A DNA stretch of 64,000 bases from Halarcobacter sp. (lineage in GTDB: Bacteria > Campylobacterota > Campylobacteria > Campylobacterales > Arcobacteraceae): positions 124,001 through 188,000 of the forward strand of contig JAQYVX010000007.1 of the NCBI GenBank assembly GCA_030145305.1, given 5' to 3'. How positions within the stretch are numbered: the stretch's first letter is position 1; every line of letters begins with the position of its first letter. Shown here piece after piece: positions 71 to 9,696 of the stretch. The notes under the pieces are model-generated. The model did not search any database. It saw only the letters and a program-made list of their open reading frames with translations, and was not told where the DNA came from. A program made the position numbers and the translations under genes.

Positions 71-1309
71 TTAATTTTTAAAAGTTATTTTAAAACAAGC
101 CCCATCTTTTTTATTGCAGACTTCTATTTTTGCACCTAATTTTTCGACTATTTGCTTTGTCATATAAAGTCCAACACCAGTTCCTTTAGACTCTTTTGTA
201 GTAAAATTTGATTCAAAAACTCTTTCTAAAATTGAAGGAGGAATTCCTTTTGCATTATCACTTATTCTCAAAATAGTAAGCTTACCTTCTATAGAAGCGG
301 TTACTGTAATTCTTCTATTTTTAATATTATTGCTAATAAAAGCATCTTTGCTATTGTTTATCAAATTTATAAGAACATGCTTGAATTCATTTAAAACAAC
401 AGTAACTTTTTCTTCTAATCTTCCCTCTTTTTTTATTTCTATTTGATTTTTAATTAATTCATCTTTCATTAGTATTGTTACTGAATCAAGTAATATTTGT
501 ATTGAAACTTTCCTTATCTCTGATTTTGGTCTAAAAAAAGATCTAAATTCATCCAAGGTTTCAACTAAATGTTTTACTTGTTTTTCACTTTTATTAACAA
601 ACTTACTTATTTCTTCTTTATTTAAAGTATCAGAAAGTAAACATTGAATCTGAATTTGTTGATTTATTAAACTAACTACTCCTAGCGGGTTTTTCCATTG
701 ATGAGCTATGGCATCAATCATTGCTCCCATTGAGGCATCTTTTGCTTGTTTTAATAGAATTTTATCTTTTTCACGAAGTTCATTTACAGATTCTTCTACT
801 TTAGTTTCTAAATTTTTATTTAAGATTTTTAGTTTTTCTGAGACTTCATTTAATTCAAAATTTTTCTTTTCTAAACTATTCTTTGTTTTTGCTAATTCTC
901 TTGAAGCTGTAGAAAATTCATTTATCATAGATAAATATTCTCTTGCATCAGTATGGGATAAAGTTGGCTTTTCTTCTGCTACAACAAGTATTTTATCATT
1001 TTCATTAAGGTATAAAACTAAATCATAACTACTTGGAATATCTTCTACACTTCTACATTCCAAACTAAAATTCGTATTTACTTTTTTTATTTTATTTTCA
1101 CAATTTAATTCGTCTATACTTTTAAATAAACTTTTATGATGAGTGTAAGTAGTAAAATCTTTTAAATATTTAAACTTATCTTTGTATTCTTCAAAGTTTT
1201 TATTAAAATCTAATATTTTTGTATCTTTTTCAATTAAGAAAATAAATTTATTTTTATTATCAAATAGTTTTTCAATTATTTCTGTATTTAATATATTTAA
1301 ATCTATCAC
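71..1309 (-). CDS. Soluble PAS-like histidine kinase paired with a cobalamin protein
   Basis: This 412-residue cytoplasmic sensor kinase would autophosphorylate on a histidine and pass the phosphate to an unseen response regulator. Residues about 20-115 look like a PAS-type sensing fold, 130-190 form a coiled coil, the H-box is HQWKNP with His203, and the ATPase domain follows with an N-box (NNSKD), a G1 box (DNAKG) and a GTGVGL box. No transmembrane segment is visible, so the signal should be internal. The ATG overlaps the TGA of the upstream cobalamin-binding gene by four bases, implying translational coupling. The kinase call is secure. A partnership with the B12 protein is inferred from the overlap. 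Confidence 0.9.
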   Translation of the reverse strand: MIDLNILNTEIIEKLFDNKNKFIFLIEKDTKILDFNKNFEEYKDKFKYLKDFTTYTHHKSLFKSIDELNCENKIKKVNTNFSLECRSVEDIPSSYDLVLYLNENDKILVVAEEKPTLSHTDAREYLSMINEFSTASRELAKTKNSLEKKNFELNEVSEKLKILNKNLETKVEESVNELREKDKILLKQAKDASMGAMIDAIAHQWKNPLGVVSLINQQIQIQCLLSDTLNKEEISKFVNKSEKQVKHLVETLDEFRSFFRPKSEIRKVSIQILLDSVTILMKDELIKNQIEIKKEGRLEEKVTVVLNEFKHVLINLINNSKDAFISNNIKNRRITVTASIEGKLTILRISDNAKGIPPSILERVFESNFTTKESKGTGVGLYMTKQIVEKLGAKIEVCNKKDGACFKITFKN

Positions 1310-1953
1310 TTATTCTCTTTTTCTAATTCTTTTAATAAAGAGTCCATATCTTTTATATAAAAATCAGCTTTTGTTTTTATCTCACTATTAGCTTTGTAAG
1401 CTTGTCCCCCAACATAAAACTTGATTCTCTCTTTTAGTGCTAGTTTCAATTCTGAAATTAGATTTTCTGTTGAATCTAAGTTTGAGATAAGTGTAGTTGA
1501 AATTATTATTTCTTTTATATTTTCTTTCTTGATTAAATTTAAAAGTTCTTCATAAGTACTATTTGAATCAAGGAAATGCACATTGTAACCGTTTAATTCA
1601 AGTAAATCGGCTACAATTCTAGCTCCTAAAACATGTAATTCATTAGGAGAAAGTGTAACAATTATTTTTCTTCTATTAACAGCACTATTACTTAATATTT
1701 TTTCATAATGTTCAACCATAACTCGTTGACATATGGAAGTAGCTGTATGTTCTTCACCAACTGTAATTTCATTATCAGCCCATTTTTTACCTATTTCATG
1801 CATACTTGGAACAATTATTTGCTCCCAGAAAGATTTAATATCTTCGTTATTTTTTATATATTCTTTTGAAATTGATATTGCTTTTGTCATACTAGGTTCT
1901 AATAAAGCATCGATAAAAATATTTATTTCTAAGCTATGATTTTTACCTTGCAT
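1306..1953 (-). CDS. Cobalamin-binding protein with CarH-like photoreceptor motif
   Basis: This 215-residue protein has the two-part B12 module. Residues about 10-90 form the helical cap (B12-binding_2 type), and about 95-210 form the Rossmann-like B12-binding domain with E105-x-H107-x-x-G110, where His107 is the expected lower axial ligand of cobalt. The cap contains W58-x9-E68-H69. This Wx9EH signature caps adenosylcobalamin in the light sensor CarH and is absent from methyltransferase corrinoid proteins. The CarH MerR-type DNA-binding domain is missing, and a histidine kinase follows with a 4-base overlap. Ala59 stands where Thermus CarH has His132, so photochemistry may differ. A strong ribosome site (GGGAGAGGG) precedes the ATG. 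B12 binding is well supported; light sensing is inferred. Confidence 0.85.
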   Translation of the reverse strand: MQGKNHSLEINIFIDALLEPSMTKAISISKEYIKNNEDIKSFWEQIIVPSMHEIGKKWADNEITVGEEHTATSICQRVMVEHYEKILSNSAVNRRKIIVTLSPNELHVLGARIVADLLELNGYNVHFLDSNSTYEELLNLIKKENIKEIIISTTLISNLDSTENLISELKLALKERIKFYVGGQAYKANSEIKTKADFYIKDMDSLLKELEKENK

Positions 1954-2734: not shown

Positions 2735-4402
2735 TTATTTAGGTATTTTTATTGTGAAACAAGCTCCGATTTTAGTATTTTTGACATTTATAAAGCCTTT
2801 CATTTCCCTTTCAATAATATTTTTTGACATATAAAGACCTATTCCTGTACCTTGTGTTTTATGATGTGTTGTAAAGTATGGTTCAAAAATCTTATCTAAT
2901 ATATCTTCTTTTATTCCTCCTGCATTATCTTCAATCTTGAGAATATTATATCCCTCACCACTTTTTATTATTATTTCAATTTTTGGATTTTGGATTTTTC
3001 TTTCTAATAAAATATCTTTTGCATTACTTAATATATTTAATACTACTTGGGAATATTCATTTTTATAACCATTCACTTCTTCATCATCAACTACATTAAA
3101 AGTAACTTCAATACTATGATATATCAATGCACTTTTAACAATAAAATATGCTTTTTCACAAGCTTCTTTTACACTAAAAAGTTCTTTTTCTCCTTTTGGA
3201 TTAAAAAAGTTCTGGAAATCGGAAATTGTTTGGCTCATATAAGAAGTAAGAAGATCTGCTTCATCTATTTTCTCATTTAGATACTCTTCTGTGAACTCAT
3301 TAAATTCGTAAGTTGCTAACATATTCATATGTATTGCGGATATTTGAGATAAGGGTTGTCTCCATTGGTGAGCAATATTCCCTATCATTTCTCCCATTGA
3401 TGCTAATTTTGATTGTTGTATTAATATTTGTTCTTGTTCTAATCTTTTACTAATCTCATTTTGTATTTTAAACTCTAAATTGTCAATCATATTATTCATC
3501 ATAATTTTCAATTCATTTAGAGCTTTGCTGTTTGTACTAGTAGTTAATCTCATTCCTAAATTACCACTTTTAATATGTTGTAAAACTTTAGTTGCATTTT
3601 TAATTAAATCTTCATTTTTCTTAATATTAAGTTCTACATTTTCAAAATTTTGATTAATTGATTCTGCCATTTGAGAGAATTCATCATTTGAATGAATAAG
3701 AATTCTTTGTGCTTTATCTTTTTTATAATTTAAATATTCAAAAAATTCATTTAATCCTCTTTGAACAATATTCATAGAAGTAATAATACTATTTGAAATA
3801 AGCCAACCTATAACTATTGAGAAAAATAAAATAATCAATAAATATATAATAATCTCAACAATTAATACTTTTGATTCTTCCACCGCATTTGAATATGAAG
3901 TTTTTGCTTTATTTAAAAGTTCGCTTTGTAAAGTAAGTAAATTGTTCAATAAAAATTCAAATTGATTTTTGCCTCGTGTAGTAACATTTATATAAGCACC
4001 TTCTTCAAAGCCTCTTTCTAAATAATAGTTTGTTTTTTGTATGACTTTCTTATATTTATTCCATAAATTAAAAATAAGCTCATTTTTTATATAAGAACTT
4101 GAAAAAGATTTATCTAAATTCCTTATTAATATATTTAAATCGCTTTGAATTTTAATTCTTAATTTTTTATTTGGTGCCATTACCAAAGATTGTGTTTTTT
4201 CTCTTAACTTATATAAAGGGGCAATTATATTTTCTTGTAAAACTGATACGCTTTGAGATTGGAGATATACCGCTTTTAATCTAGCTTTTGAATTCTCACT
4301 AATATCAATAATAATATAACCAAAGATAAAAACCGAACAACATAAAACCACAAATAGAATACTTAGTTTTGATTTAATATTAAATCTATCAATTATTTTC
4401 AT
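2735..4402 (-). CDS. Membrane histidine kinase with large periplasmic domain
   Basis: This 555-residue sensor kinase has transmembrane helix 1 at about 12-32, a helical periplasmic domain at about 33-180, helix 2 at about 182-203, a HAMP-like linker plus a second helical linker to about 310, and a coiled coil. The H-box is HQWRQP with His345, and the C-terminal ATPase domain shows NNSKD-like (LSNAKD), DNAGG and GTGIGL boxes. The ATG shares one base (TAATG) with the stop of the binding-protein gene upstream, so the two are translated together. It probably reads the state of that periplasmic protein and phosphorylates the response regulator encoded at 6038. The ligand is unknown. Confidence 0.9.
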   Translation of the reverse strand: MKIIDRFNIKSKLSILFVVLCCSVFIFGYIIIDISENSKARLKAVYLQSQSVSVLQENIIAPLYKLREKTQSLVMAPNKKLRIKIQSDLNILIRNLDKSFSSSYIKNELIFNLWNKYKKVIQKTNYYLERGFEEGAYINVTTRGKNQFEFLLNNLLTLQSELLNKAKTSYSNAVEESKVLIVEIIIYLLIILFFSIVIGWLISNSIITSMNIVQRGLNEFFEYLNYKKDKAQRILIHSNDEFSQMAESINQNFENVELNIKKNEDLIKNATKVLQHIKSGNLGMRLTTSTNSKALNELKIMMNNMIDNLEFKIQNEISKRLEQEQILIQQSKLASMGEMIGNIAHQWRQPLSQISAIHMNMLATYEFNEFTEEYLNEKIDEADLLTSYMSQTISDFQNFFNPKGEKELFSVKEACEKAYFIVKSALIYHSIEVTFNVVDDEEVNGYKNEYSQVVLNILSNAKDILLERKIQNPKIEIIIKSGEGYNILKIEDNAGGIKEDILDKIFEPYFTTHHKTQGTGIGLYMSKNIIEREMKGFINVKNTKIGACFTIKIPK

Positions 4403-6045
4403 TATTTAACCCTTAATGGTATTATTGGTTGATATAGTTTTTTAGGATATTTTCCTTTTTCTCTAACAGACCAATGTCTCTTGGTAATTCTTGTTTTCCA
4501 CAAAGGAACTATTCCTCCTGCAAATGGTTCAAAAATAACCTCTTTATTTACTGCAATTACTTTATTAATAGAGGGTACTCTTAAAGTATATGCCATATCT
4601 CTTGCTCTATATAAAATTTTTGAAACAATATCTTCATACTCAGTACCTCCAATTTTAGTTTCAAAAAAATCATCTATATAACTTTTCATAAAACGATCAT
4701 TTGGAATTGTTGACCATGGAGAATCATTTTCATAAATAAAAAGTGTTGTCCAAGGATTTTGATAATACCAATCATCATCTCCCCAAGCTAGCATATCCCA
4801 AGACTTAGTATTTTTTGAAGCTCTTGTATTAAGCAACTGTTCATAAATATCTTTCTCACTGCTTGTTATTTCATAATTCAATTTTACACCGTATCGTTCA
4901 AGTTGATACTCAATACCTCTCCATAAAAACATAAAACGATCTTGTGTAAAGACATTAAGAACTAGACCATTTAATAATTTATGTTTTTTTTCCTCTGACA
5001 TTTTATAAGTTTTATACTCTTTTTTACTAGCAATTTTTTTAACTACTTTAAAATGAATAGAGGTAGAAAAAGGGGAAAGTGTTCCTTCTTTTTTATATAC
5101 AAAATTTAGAATATTCTCTTGATCTAAAGCTTCATTTAAAGCTAATCTAACTTCTGTATTTTTCAATTTCTCATCTCCATTAATAAGATTGAAAAATATA
5201 ATAATATTATTTGTAGATTCTTTTACAACAAGCTTCGAATATTTTGACATAACAGCTTCTATCTTTTTATTAAAAGGAATAGGAGAAAGATCTAAAAGTC
5301 CCTCATAATTAACTATACTATCAAAAGCTTCTTGGGCATCTAACTGAGTAAAGATTGTTACTTTTTTAATTTTAGGGTATCTTTTATCCCAATAATAAGG
5401 ATTAGCTTCAAGTATGATTTTATTAGTTTGTTTTTTCCCTATTGCATAACCACTTTTTAAAATATATGGTCCCATTCCAAAAGCCCCTGGAGTTTTTGTT
5501 CCTGTTTCAGTCTCTTCACCTTTTGGCTTGTATTTTTTTAAATAATCATCCGTAAAAAAAAACACTCTTGCTAAATCTAAAAAAAACATTTCATACTTTT
5601 GTTTTAATTCAATTTTAACTTTATACTCATCAACTTTACTTATCTCAAAATCTATCTTATCAACGTTTGTAAATAAAAAAGGTTTTTTCTTAAAATGATT
5701 TAAATTATTAATTACTGATTCTATTGTAAAAGGAGTACCATCTTGAAACTTTAAGTTTTTTTTGATTTCAAAGATATATGTATAATCATCAATTCGTTCA
5801 TGACCTTTTGCTAAATCATAGACCCAGCCTTGCTCATTATCATCAGAACGAATAAGACCTGCATTTGTATTTTTAGATACATAAATATAAGGAATACTAG
5901 GAAGAAAAACTTTTATATGAGATTTTGGATGTAAGTAATTTATTGCATCTTTTGAAGACATATCTTCTTTAAACATATCTTCTTCTATATCCAAAGCAAA
6001 AGAATATAATATTAGTATTAATAATAAGAAAAAACTTTTAAACAA
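4402..6045 (-). CDS. Family-5 periplasmic solute-binding protein, sensor-associated
   Basis: This 547-residue exported protein has a signal peptide at about 1-17 and the SBP_bac_5 fold of oligopeptide and nickel binding proteins, including the typical early segment around residues 80-115 (FQDGTPFT). No permease or ATPase gene is nearby. It is instead sandwiched between a response regulator (8-base overlap) and a histidine kinase (1-base overlap). The arrangement suggests a ligand-capturing co-sensor for the kinase rather than a transporter component. Family assignment is firm. The sensor role is inference, and the ligand (peptide, metal chelate or other) cannot be told. Confidence 0.85.
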   Translation of the reverse strand: MFKSFFLLLILILYSFALDIEEDMFKEDMSSKDAINYLHPKSHIKVFLPSIPYIYVSKNTNAGLIRSDDNEQGWVYDLAKGHERIDDYTYIFEIKKNLKFQDGTPFTIESVINNLNHFKKKPFLFTNVDKIDFEISKVDEYKVKIELKQKYEMFFLDLARVFFFTDDYLKKYKPKGEETETGTKTPGAFGMGPYILKSGYAIGKKQTNKIILEANPYYWDKRYPKIKKVTIFTQLDAQEAFDSIVNYEGLLDLSPIPFNKKIEAVMSKYSKLVVKESTNNIIIFFNLINGDEKLKNTEVRLALNEALDQENILNFVYKKEGTLSPFSTSIHFKVVKKIASKKEYKTYKMSEEKKHKLLNGLVLNVFTQDRFMFLWRGIEYQLERYGVKLNYEITSSEKDIYEQLLNTRASKNTKSWDMLAWGDDDWYYQNPWTTLFIYENDSPWSTIPNDRFMKSYIDDFFETKIGGTEYEDIVSKILYRARDMAYTLRVPSINKVIAVNKEVIFEPFAGGIVPLWKTRITKRHWSVREKGKYPKKLYQPIIPLRVK

Positions 6046-6721
6046 AATTGTATCCTATCCCTGACAAATTATTAATAATATTAGTAGGTAATTTTTTTCT
6101 TAAATGTAAAACAACAGATCTTAAAGCATTATCAGTCATAACATTGTCTTGCCAAACTTTATCTTGTATCTCTTCATATTTCACAACTCTATTTTGATTA
6201 TTTACAAGCAATTCAATAAAAAGAACTTCTTTCTTATTTAATGGAATAATTTCATCTTTATAAATTAACTTTTTATTCTCAAAATTGTAACTATAGTTTT
6301 TATCACAAAGTAATATTTCAATACGACTTATATTTAAAGAATCTATACATTTTCCAAGAACTTCAAAAAGCATTCTTGTATTAATAGGTTTAACAATATA
6401 TTTTTCCATATGCAACTCTACAGCTTCTAATAAATACTTTTTATCTGTATGAGCTGTTATCATTACAACTGGTGTATTTTTATCTTTTTTTCTTACTTTT
6501 TTTATAAATTCTATTCCATCCATTATAGGCATATGAATATCACTTAGTATAATATCTGGTTTTTTTTCTTCATATAAATCAAGGGCTTCTTTACCATTAG
6601 AAGCTTCATACACGTCTTTTGCATAATAACTCAAAGTTTTCATAATGTTTTTTCTAATTCCGATTTCATCTTCTGCATAAAGTATAGTCAATGATTTTAG
6701 TTTAAGTTTAATACTTTTCAA
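6038..6721 (-). CDS. OmpR-type response regulator
   Basis: The 227-residue protein has an N-terminal receiver domain with the acidic pocket E17-D18, phospho-acceptor D61, a T/K switch region (ITAH and KPI) and a C-terminal winged-helix DNA-binding domain (about 135-227). It is the first gene of the operon regulator, binding protein, kinase, and it diverges from the Mo-enzyme operon starting at 6875. The 153-bp shared promoter region suggests it controls that operon, its own, or both. A TATAAT box lies at 6753-6758 on the minus strand. Confidence 0.92.
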   Translation of the reverse strand: MKSIKLKLKSLTILYAEDEIGIRKNIMKTLSYYAKDVYEASNGKEALDLYEEKKPDIILSDIHMPIMDGIEFIKKVRKKDKNTPVVMITAHTDKKYLLEAVELHMEKYIVKPINTRMLFEVLGKCIDSLNISRIEILLCDKNYSYNFENKKLIYKDEIIPLNKKEVLFIELLVNNQNRVVKYEEIQDKVWQDNVMTDNALRSVVLHLRKKLPTNIINNLSGIGYNFV

Positions 6722-6874: not shown

Positions 6875-7423
6875 ATGAACGCAAATTCTGAAAGATTAAA
6901 AACAGCGAAAAACTTAAGAGATATCTTCTTAAGTAATAATTCAAAAGAGTTGTTTGAAGCTTTTTCAAGTCTACTTGAAGAGACAAATATCTCCGAGATA
7001 GAACTTGAAACTGACTTTAATTATTATTTTGTAGGACCTGATACTCCTATTGCTCCACCTTATGCATCTATTTATTTAGATGAAGAAGATTCACTAATGA
7101 CAAAGACCACTATGCAGATACGAGATTTATATGAAATCATGGGATTTAAAAACTCTTTAAAAGATAAAGTTCCAGAAGATTTTATAGGATTAGAATTAGA
7201 TGCATATTATCAATTACTATTTATTGAAATTGAGAAAGAAATTCCTTATCTAAAAGATTTGAGAACTTATTTCTTATGTGAACATATAGATACCTGGATA
7301 TTTAAATTTATTAATCGAGTTTTAGAACATCAAGATAAAAATTCAAATGCAATAATTTTGATAATAAAAAAACTAGATAATTTTTTTAAAAATGAACTCA
7401 AAATTAAAGGAGAAATATTATGA
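6875..7423 (+). CDS. TorD/DmsD-family redox enzyme chaperone
   Basis: This 182-residue cytoplasmic protein resembles the all-helical TorD family, which binds the Tat signal and apo-form of molybdoenzymes before export. Visible family features are the PPYASIYLDEE segment near residue 66, the YEIMGF segment near 88 and the EHIDTWI segment near 140. Its TGA overlaps the ATG of the molybdoenzyme by four bases, the expected coupling of chaperone and client. An AGAGG ribosome site precedes the ATG. Confidence 0.85.
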   Translation: MNANSERLKTAKNLRDIFLSNNSKELFEAFSSLLEETNISEIELETDFNYYFVGPDTPIAPPYASIYLDEEDSLMTKTTMQIRDLYEIMGFKNSLKDKVPEDFIGLELDAYYQLLFIEIEKEIPYLKDLRTYFLCEHIDTWIFKFINRVLEHQDKNSNAIILIIKKLDNFFKNELKIKGEIL

Positions 7424-9696
7424 GTTACTCAAAAGAAAAAGTAGAAAGTATATTAAACGATGGCCTTCAAAGAAGAGGTTTTTTAAAAGGCTTAGTTGCT
7501 TGTGGTGTTTTATCAGTTTTACCAGGAGGAAGATTATTAGCAAATGAATCTTTAAACACAAAGATTCCATATTTAGGGAAAAAAAGTTATGAAACTTTTA
7601 GAAATGCCTGTCCTAGGAATTGTTATGATACTTGTAGTATAAAAACTTTTGTAAAAGATGGAGTAATGCAATTTATAGAAGGAGCAACAGAATCTACTTT
7701 TACAAGAGGTGGCTGTTGTGTAAAAGGGAATACTTATTCAAGAAGAGTATATTCTCCAAAAAGAATTAAATATCCAATGATGCAAATAGGAGGAAAAGGC
7801 TCAGGTTCTTGGAAAAGAATTTCTTGGGACGAAGCTATTAGTCATATTGGTGATAATCTTTTAAATATGAAAAAAGAAGATGGGCATTTATTAGGTGCTG
7901 CTCTTACAAAATATTCTGGAAATTTTGGTATTACACATTATGGGGTTGAAGGTATGTTTAGTTCAATTGGTTATACAACAAGATTTGGTGGAACTCCATG
8001 TTGGCCAGCTGGAATTGATGCCCAAAATTTTGATACAGGAAATATGTGGTGTAATGACCCAGAAGAAATAAAAGATAGTAAATATATTATTCTTTGGGGT
8101 GTTAATCCAGCTTCTAATTCTATTCATACTATGAAATATATTTATGAAGCAAAAAGAAAAGGCGCAAAAGTTATTGTAATAGATCCTTTATTTACAGAAA
8201 CAGCATCTAAAGCTAATGAATATTTTCAAGTAAAAGCAGGTAGTGATGGATTATTAGCTCTAGCAATGGCAAAGATTATTGTTGAAAATAATTTACATGA
8301 TAAAAAATGGCTTAAGAAAAATTCACATGGATATAAAGAATATGAAAAATATTTAAAAACTATATCTGTGAAAAAAGCAGCTGAAGTAAGTGGCTTATCA
8401 GAAGAATTAATAAAAGAAATTGCTTTAGGATTTGCAAAAGCTGACCCTGCAACTATTTGGATAGGGTATGGACTTCAAAGACATACAAATGGTGGGGCTA
8501 TGGTTAGAGCAATTGATGCTCTAGTTGCACTTACTGGAAACGTTGGTAAATATGCTGGTGGTGCAAGATATGGACACCTAAATACTTGGGGATTTAATTA
8601 CAATGCAATGACAAATCCTAAACCAGAAGGAAGTATTGGATATACAGCATCTGGCGCAGTTATGGGTGATGTACATGGAGCAGGTAGTGCTGAAAAAGTT
8701 AAATATTCAGATAGATACCTTAATATCAATAAAACAGCAGATGGAATATTAACAGCAGCTGATCCTAAAATAAAACTTTTATGGGTAGCTTGTAAAAATC
8801 CAATGGCTCAAGATTTTGATAGAAATAAACTTATAAAGGCATTTAGTACTATTGAGACTATTGTTGTTGCTGACCAATTTTTTAATGAAACAACAAAATG
8901 GGCAGATATAGTTTTACCTGTTACAACTCAATTTGAAGAGTATGATGTAAATGTTTCATATTGGCATTATTGGTTAAGTTTAAATGAACAAGCAATAAAA
9001 CCTCTTCATGAAGCAAAATCTGATTTAGAAATTGCCTCATTATTATCAACTTATATGAATAAAAAAGAGAAAGGTTCATGTACTTTCCCTCAAAAATATA
9101 ATAGTAAAAAAACAACAATCAAAGAGTTTAATAATGGAATTTATGAACAATTTGGAATAAAATCTTGGAAAGACCTAAGAGATGGACCTGTAAAAGCAAA
9201 AGCTGTTATTCCTTTTGCAGATGGGAAATTTAGTACACCAAGTGGAAAATTTGAGTTTTACTCTGAAAAAGCAGTTGAGTTTGGACATACAGCATTACCT
9301 GAATACTTAGAAGTAAGAAAACCTTATGACAAATATAGATTAACAACATTACACTCTAGATTTTCACTTCATTCACAATTCCAAAATCTTGATTGGATGG
9401 AAGATGTTAATCCTGAACCATTTGTATATATCAATCCTGAAGATGCAACATTTAAAAGAATTAAAACAGGAGATATGGTAGCAGTTTTCAATAAACAAGG
9501 GCTATTAAGAGTAAAAGCAAAGGTTACAGATAATACTCCCGTTGGTACATTTATGATGTATGAACAATGGTTTAATAATAGTATTTACAATGTAAATGAG
9601 TTAGTAGATGATACTTCTTCAGATATGGGTTCATTTAAAACAGGCGCACCAGGTATCGCATTACAAGATACTTATGTAAACGTTAGAAAAATATAA
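7420..9696 (+). CDS. Tat-exported DMSO-reductase-family molybdopterin oxidoreductase
   Basis: The 758-residue catalytic subunit has a twin-arginine signal (RRGFLKG at about 18-24, hydrophobic to 41), then C64-x3-C68-x3-C72 and C99/C100 for the N-terminal 4Fe-4S cluster, then the bis-MGD domains and a C-terminal dinucleotide-binding domain. At the place where DmsA has its Ser Mo ligand I align Cys194 (GGTPCWPAG). Cysteine ligation is typical of the polysulfide, thiosulfate and arsenate branches rather than of DMSO/TMAO reductases. The substrate is therefore open; DMSO reductase subunit A would be the default annotation. Chaperone, Fe-S subunit and divergent regulators flank it. No NrfD/DmsC-type membrane anchor is present. 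Confidence 0.88.
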   Translation: MSYSKEKVESILNDGLQRRGFLKGLVACGVLSVLPGGRLLANESLNTKIPYLGKKSYETFRNACPRNCYDTCSIKTFVKDGVMQFIEGATESTFTRGGCCVKGNTYSRRVYSPKRIKYPMMQIGGKGSGSWKRISWDEAISHIGDNLLNMKKEDGHLLGAALTKYSGNFGITHYGVEGMFSSIGYTTRFGGTPCWPAGIDAQNFDTGNMWCNDPEEIKDSKYIILWGVNPASNSIHTMKYIYEAKRKGAKVIVIDPLFTETASKANEYFQVKAGSDGLLALAMAKIIVENNLHDKKWLKKNSHGYKEYEKYLKTISVKKAAEVSGLSEELIKEIALGFAKADPATIWIGYGLQRHTNGGAMVRAIDALVALTGNVGKYAGGARYGHLNTWGFNYNAMTNPKPEGSIGYTASGAVMGDVHGAGSAEKVKYSDRYLNINKTADGILTAADPKIKLLWVACKNPMAQDFDRNKLIKAFSTIETIVVADQFFNETTKWADIVLPVTTQFEEYDVNVSYWHYWLSLNEQAIKPLHEAKSDLEIASLLSTYMNKKEKGSCTFPQKYNSKKTTIKEFNNGIYEQFGIKSWKDLRDGPVKAKAVIPFADGKFSTPSGKFEFYSEKAVEFGHTALPEYLEVRKPYDKYRLTTLHSRFSLHSQFQNLDWMEDVNPEPFVYINPEDATFKRIKTGDMVAVFNKQGLLRVKAKVTDNTPVGTFMMYEQWFNNSIYNVNELVDDTSSDMGSFKTGAPGIALQDTYVNVRKI

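Follow-up and report, generated by a model that had tools for sequence, protein, structure and literature searches.

A stand-alone cobalamin (B12) sensor protein and a histidine kinase are encoded by adjacent genes in the window, by which is meant the whole stretch of 64,000 nucleotides of Halarcobacter sp. DNA that was analysed. The pair is real and conserved, and it is a variation on the photocobilin and AerR-type sensors. The two genes probably form a cobalamin-sensing module, in which the sensor docks on a PAS domain and the following helix of the kinase, and in which the state of the cobalamin gates the kinase, with light as the likeliest trigger. A more far-reaching reading can be offered tentatively. 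According to this, a detachable B12 photosensor would sit on a dedicated PAS-helix platform with an exchangeable output, resulting in a B12-gated two-component system in non-phototrophic Campylobacterota, and the window lineage, which has no bilin-type domain, would represent a pure cobalamin/green-light version.

The targets of the B12 photoreceptors known so far are DNA, a repressor, or a diguanylate cyclase that is either fused to them or added. If the reading is true, a histidine kinase gated by a B12 sensor would extend light sensing by cobalamin to two-component systems. In addition, the naturally occurring exchange of outputs downstream of a single PAS domain would provide a test of B12-domain signalling, as well as ready-made parts for green-light control. 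No description of a B12 sensor/kinase pair was found in the open-access literature, the photoglobin paper mentioned below lying outside that scope.

The gene pair and its features

Both genes lie on the minus strand and overlap by 4 nt, the B12 protein running from 1953 to 1306 and the kinase from 1309 to 71. They correspond exactly, in position and in the 4-base overlap, to those of an earlier note made from the sequence alone. Direct reading of the B12 protein gave G55, W58, A59, E68, H69, E105, H107 and G110, and thus confirmed the E105/H107/G110 and W58/E68/H69 sets named in that note; its soluble histidine kinase is borne out by the HATPase_c match, H203 and the located boxes. The earlier account did not include the conserved PAS platform, the longer relatives, or the content of the genome beyond position 1. 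The features are the following.

1306..1953, minus strand: stand-alone B12-binding sensor protein, 215 aa, ATG start (Pfam PF02607 and PF02310; AlphaFold2 model; PDB fold matches)
1747..1782, minus strand: W58-x9-E68-H69 upper-ligand signature (direct reading and ungapped CarH alignment)
1780-1782, 1777-1779, 1750-1752 and 1747-1749, minus strand: codons of W58, A59, E68 and H69, respectively
1717..1740, minus strand: cap helix 4 face T72-S-I-C-Q76-R77-V-M79, the proposed docking face, conserved only in the PAS-partner family
1624..1641, minus strand: E105-x-H107-x-x-G110, with the predicted lower axial cobalt ligand H107 at 1633-1635
71..1309, minus strand: soluble PAS-histidine kinase, 412 aa, GTG start (catalytic boxes located)
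956..1255, minus strand: N-terminal PAS domain of the kinase, residues 19-118 (AlphaFold2 PAS topology; PDB PAS matches)
842..955, minus strand: post-PAS helix, residues 119-156, with Y125, R137, L139, K141 and L146 conserved; a proposed Q-linker-like docking and signalling helix
524..730, minus strand: HisKA dimerisation/phosphoacceptor domain (Pfam PF00512, below cut-off), with H203 at 701-703
77..388, minus strand: HATPase_c catalytic domain (Pfam PF02518, E 2.4e-18)

The 215-aa protein comprises a helical cap (residues 13-79) and a Rossmann domain (residues 96-191). They are recognized by Pfam as B12-binding_2 (E 1.6e-11) and B12-binding (E 1.1e-14), both above the cut-off, and the Pfam scan returned no domain besides these two. 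Only three PF02310 (B12-binding) proteins are encoded in the genome: the window sensor, MetH, and glutamate mutase S. In the 412-aa protein the H, N, G1, F, and G2 boxes of histidine kinases were located. H203, in HQWKNPL, is the likely phosphoacceptor, and it is accompanied by NLINNSKD, DNAKGIP, and GTGVGL. Pfam recognized nothing in the kinase beyond HATPase_c and the weak HisKA.

The predicted cobalamin pocket

The segment EIGKKWADNEITVGEEHTATS of the window protein aligns without gaps to CarH, and Wx9EH stands at the matching position. The signature is above chance, because it occurs anywhere in 0.6% of composition shuffles of the window protein and its position agrees with that in CarH. 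An alignment of 59 B12 domains was used to follow these residues, the MetH and methyltransferase counts referring to proteins readable at the signature columns. W, E, and H are complete in 12 of 12 pair proteins and 2 of 2 CarH-like proteins; in the other photocobilin-type proteins, W and H are found in 13/13 and E in 12/13. None of the 14 methyltransferase and 16 MetH proteins has the full set; at these columns they show Phe in most cases and Val/Leu/Met in all. The earlier suggestion that Wx9EH marks a CarH-type pocket is upheld by these counts (0/30 for the enzyme-type proteins). H107 is conserved in every aligned sequence, and E105 in all sensor-type proteins, being replaced by Asp in all MetH and methyltransferase proteins. 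We infer that the 215-aa protein binds cobalamin, and, judging from the ungapped alignment with CarH, W58, E68, and H69 would enclose the upper ligand as they do in CarH and photocobilins. Ala59 was correctly assigned in the earlier note to the place of CarH His132, as the ungapped alignment confirms; Ala occupies this position in 11 of the 12 pair proteins.

The light-signature set of SignatureFinder consists of four published motifs: GxxW, EH, GxxH, and GxxxP. The light-responsive motifs GxxW and EH are present in the window protein (G55-x-x-W58 and E68-H69), and GxxH and GxxxP are degenerate (N104-E-L-H107 and D129-S-N-S-T133). The Chloroflexota relatives show G-E-L-H at the GxxH site, and most of them also G-A-N-T-P. 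The score against the NCBIfam CarH equivalog is 59 bits and does not reach the cut-off of 400.

Fold, phylogeny, and known B12 sensors

The AlphaFold2 model of the B12 protein (pLDDT 88, pTM 0.84) matches photocobilins in the PDB with Z scores of 24.7 (8j2w) and 24.6 over 206 residues. Further matches are CtMerR (22.3), AerR (21.5), CarH (20.5), and AppA SCHIC (20.4); MetH and corrinoid proteins also reach a Z of about 20, and therefore the fold alone is no guide to function. The best sequence match in the PDB is CtMerR (E 3.8e-11). In the maximum-likelihood tree, sensor-type and enzyme-type B12 domains are split with 100/100 support, and the grouping with methyltransferase corrinoid proteins that the earlier note had considered is not seen. 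The window protein and its congener form a group (100/87) within a branch of Campylobacterota (100/99), to which Chloroflexota is sister; the tree carries a long-branch warning, so fine placements among distant sensor types are to be read loosely.

The window protein is best described as a sister branch to CarH. It had previously been regarded as a CarH-like protein without the DNA-binding domain. The absence of that domain is correct according to Pfam; the CarH ancestry is not, because the fold is nearer to photocobilins (Z 24.7 vs 20.5) and the tree places the protein among relatives with an extra N-terminal domain.

The photocobilins SasPcob and AbDPcob (8J2W/8J2X/8J2Y; PMC10979010) have the closest predicted fold, and the upper-ligand signature is common to both groups. 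They carry a biliverdin-binding globin-like domain, which is lacking in the window protein and in place of which its full-length relatives have an N-terminal helical domain. Stand-alone photocobilins affect a diguanylate cyclase in trans when tested in vitro, and a kinase partner is not described there (PMC10979010). With CarH/LitR of Thermus (5C8D, 8C31, 8C35) the window protein shares Wx9EH, the lower His, and the fold (Z about 20). Unlike these, it has no MerR DNA-binding domain, carries Ala for His132, has lost GxxxP, and is proposed to act through its partner kinase. CtMerR of Chloracidobacterium (8JBS/8JBT; PMC11796333) resembles the window protein in having a residue other than His at the 132 position and is still light-responsive, but it is a MerR-type regulator with a DNA-binding domain.

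Relatives and the lost N-terminal domain

Relatives were found by a collection scan and by genome searches. Two congeners have the same gene, one of them in a version that is 60% identical and likewise short; it also occurs in a Sulfurimonas MAG and in members of Chloroflexales, most of which are Oscillochloris. A search of genomes for the same pair, as proposed in the earlier note, recovered it in all these groups. The pairing is not peculiar to Campylobacterota, since the same pair, with other outputs, is found in Chloroflexota. In Sulfurimonas, one congener, and Chloroflexales the proteins have about 365 aa, with about 150 extra N-terminal residues that form a helical domain; the window protein and its nearest congener are the only short forms among these relatives. 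The extra domain is probably of the photoglobin type, its PDB profile match to the photocobilin globin being weak (E 0.46). The ~365-aa relatives are probably members of the photoglobin-B12 proteins (Schneider et al. 2022, cited in PMC10151467), whose globin part the window protein does not have. The sister position of the two short forms in the tree suggests a single domain loss. A broken remnant upstream of the window gene was ruled out, as tblastn found no trace of a photoglobin-like domain in that region.

Another B12 sensor without the N-terminal domain, of 227 aa, is encoded at locus L043 (8745-9428). Its close relatives (L050, L051) keep the domain and come after a GGDEF-EAL-like gene, and the L043 sensor possibly represents an independent loss.

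The PAS-helix platform and its outputs

The first 155 residues of the kinase form a PAS domain and a long following helix (AlphaFold2 pLDDT 81). The PDB matches of the PAS region are PAS domains with Z of 12-14, such fold matches being generic. Within the N-terminal region of the partner, conservation is highest in the post-PAS helix. All of these B12 proteins but the one of Cloacimonadota have a partner in which PAS and helix are kept. The output behind them is a histidine kinase in Campylobacterota, a hybrid kinase-receiver-Hpt protein in one Chloroflexaceae MAG, and GGDEF in Oscillochloris. Within the genus, the PAS model matches 3 of 16 genomes, exactly the three with a close B12 orthologue. 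Among 301 Chloroflexota genomes, all six full-length PAS matches (E<1e-40) adjoin a B12 gene; weaker matches do not. Of the 11 pairs measured, 6 have their two genes no more than 4 nt apart or overlapping by 4 nt. The distances of sensor and partner proteins are congruent (r 0.98), which is no proof of contact, because shared descent or co-inheritance alone predicts as much. As the relatives stand beside kinases or cyclic-di-GMP enzymes that share a docking-type domain, the protein looks like a plug-in B12 sensor, probably for light, that can serve interchangeable outputs.

Other arrangements were met during the searches. At the Cloacimonadota locus L065 (3474-5428), a B12 sensor that does have His where CarH has His132 is encoded next to a kinase without the conserved PAS. 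At locus L044 (2344-9120), a CheB-CheR-PAS gene comes first, a PAS-GGDEF-EAL gene second, and a photocobilin-type gene third. The gene order is similar in L046, L047, L048, and L049, the domains having been checked in L044 only, and this order constitutes a second B12-sensor signalling cassette in Campylobacterota. The gene of ~790 aa that adjoins other Campylobacterota photocobilin-type genes was considered as a kinase and rejected, being PAS-GGDEF-EAL in the one tested.

Docking and the proposed mechanism

The AerR/PpaA-CrtJ/PpsR and AppA SCHIC-PpsR systems (7TE2, 4HH3; PMC9144470) consist of a stand-alone B12 (or heme) domain that docks on a PAS-helix partner. The window pair shows the AerR/PpsR-type arrangement, with a stand-alone B12 domain and a PAS-helix partner. 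The partner of AerR and SCHIC is a DNA-binding repressor, whereas the window-type partner is a histidine kinase, a hybrid kinase, or a diguanylate cyclase. In the AppA-PpsR crystal structure and in AerR-CrtJ models, cap helix 4 is turned towards the Q-linker helix that follows the PAS domain; AppA-SCHIC contacts the helix after the N-terminal PAS of PpsR/CrtJ, and AerR has been modelled there (PMC9144470). In the 59-domain alignment, T72, Q76, and R77 of this cap helix are present in 12/12 pair proteins; other photocobilin-type proteins have Gln at 76 in 1/13 and Arg at 77 in 0/13. In vitro, a photocobilin domain on its own controls a diguanylate cyclase in trans (PMC10979010). By analogy, the sensor most likely docks on the PAS-helix. 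This is the best-supported mechanism, because the helix 4 face is partner-specific and both the AerR/SCHIC and the photocobilin in-trans systems serve as precedents.

In the proposed mechanism, H107 would serve as the lower axial ligand of cobalamin, with W58, E68, and H69 around the upper ligand. The sensor, having no output of its own, would dock on the kinase PAS and following helix, probably through T72/Q76/R77 of cap helix 4. Kinase activity would change with the condition of the cobalamin (intact AdoCbl, or photolysed or absent), and with it the phosphorylation of an unlinked response regulator. The likeliest trigger would be light that cleaves the Co-C bond, without the CarH-style His132 ligand switch. 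In Chloroflexota, the output coupled to the same sensor and PAS platform is a diguanylate cyclase or else a hybrid kinase, and the window lineage appears to have lost an ancestral N-terminal helical (photoglobin-like) domain. The gene pair, its signature and fold, the conserved PAS partner, their joint occurrence, and the exchange of outputs are results of the computation; the docking, the gating by light, and the direction of the effect are what we infer from these comparisons.

Light or cobalamin as the input

Light is a plausible natural input. The H132A variant of CarH, with Ala as in the window protein, still photolyses AdoCbl, without tetramer dissociation and with minimal structural change on light (PMC10442372); photocobilins and CtMerR, without that His, are nevertheless light-responsive (PMC10442372, PMC11796333). 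Because of this, Ala59 is no argument against photochemistry; if the protein is light-driven, Ala59 implies a switch unlike that of Thermus CarH.

Sensing of the form or supply of cobalamin is the main rival to light. Here the module would be the same, but its input would be cobalamin availability or form (AdoCbl/MeCbl/OHCbl levels or redox state), and photochemistry would be a side effect. Such an input is rather unlikely, though it deserves serious consideration. It is favoured by the loss of the photoglobin-like domain and the degenerate GxxxP and GxxH motifs in the window lineage, and Ala59 weakens a CarH-type light switch. A genome search for adenosyltransferases of the CobA/CobO/BtuR and PduO-type families found none. 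AdoCbl may therefore need to be imported, and hence be worth sensing; the supply of AdoCbl accordingly counts against the main reading, despite an encoded glutamate mutase. The genes at locus L006 (2837-5831) are read as glutamate mutase S, E, and L, which are AdoCbl-dependent. Also counted against light is that we know of no light response in the source organism. On the other hand, all 12 pair proteins keep W58, E68, and H69, which in the known photoreceptors surround the light-labile adenosyl group. Many of the relatives belong to Oscillochloris, which is phototrophic, so that light is a natural cue there. Moreover, the neighbourhood of the pair contains no cobalamin-synthesis gene, and no cobalamin riboswitch was found near it at Rfam thresholds.

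Genomic neighbourhood and rejected readings

The earlier note had proposed to look for a regulator in the gene beyond position 1. A nickel-transport operon is located there instead: nikK, nikM, nikL, nikQ, and nikO follow on the same strand just outside the window, about 120 nt downstream of the kinase gene. These identities were assigned from sequence, nikK being DUF4198 by Pfam. Neither in the window genome nor in two congeners does a gene for a response regulator stand next to the pair. In the Sulfurimonas MAG, an HD-GYP-like protein, as read from its sequence, comes after the pair.

The proximity and common strand of the operon could suggest that the pair controls the ECF transporter nikKMLQO as a nickel/cobalt and B12 homeostasis system, which is very improbable. 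nikKML occurs in all 16 genomes of the genus, but the genes upstream of it are different and unrelated in each (once urease accessory genes, related to nickel), and the pair orthologues of two congeners lie away from the nik operon. Since nik is a core element with changing neighbours and the congeners' pairs are elsewhere, its position is considered incidental and the homeostasis role was rejected. That the B12 protein is a corrinoid methyltransferase or mutase subunit standing beside a kinase by chance is hardly credible and was ruled out, since, although its Pfam domains and overall fold are shared with MetH and methyltransferase corrinoid proteins, it has the Wx9EH signature, E105 in place of Asp, a sensor-side position in the tree, no methyltransferase gene nearby, and a kinase adjacency conserved across phyla.

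Upstream in the genome, outside the window, locus L004 (470-4131) contains genes for an iron/corrinoid-type ABC importer, followed by a DUF4213-DUF364 heavy-metal-chelation protein. Within the window, a HAMP histidine kinase, a family-5 periplasmic solute-binding protein, and an OmpR-type regulator are encoded in overlapping order at 2735-6721 on the minus strand. This histidine kinase and OmpR-type regulator were considered as a source of the regulator for the pair and rejected, as they belong to another system. They adjoin a molybdopterin oxidoreductase and its chaperone (6875-9696, plus strand), and the arrangement suggests a three-component sensor of some respiratory substrate.
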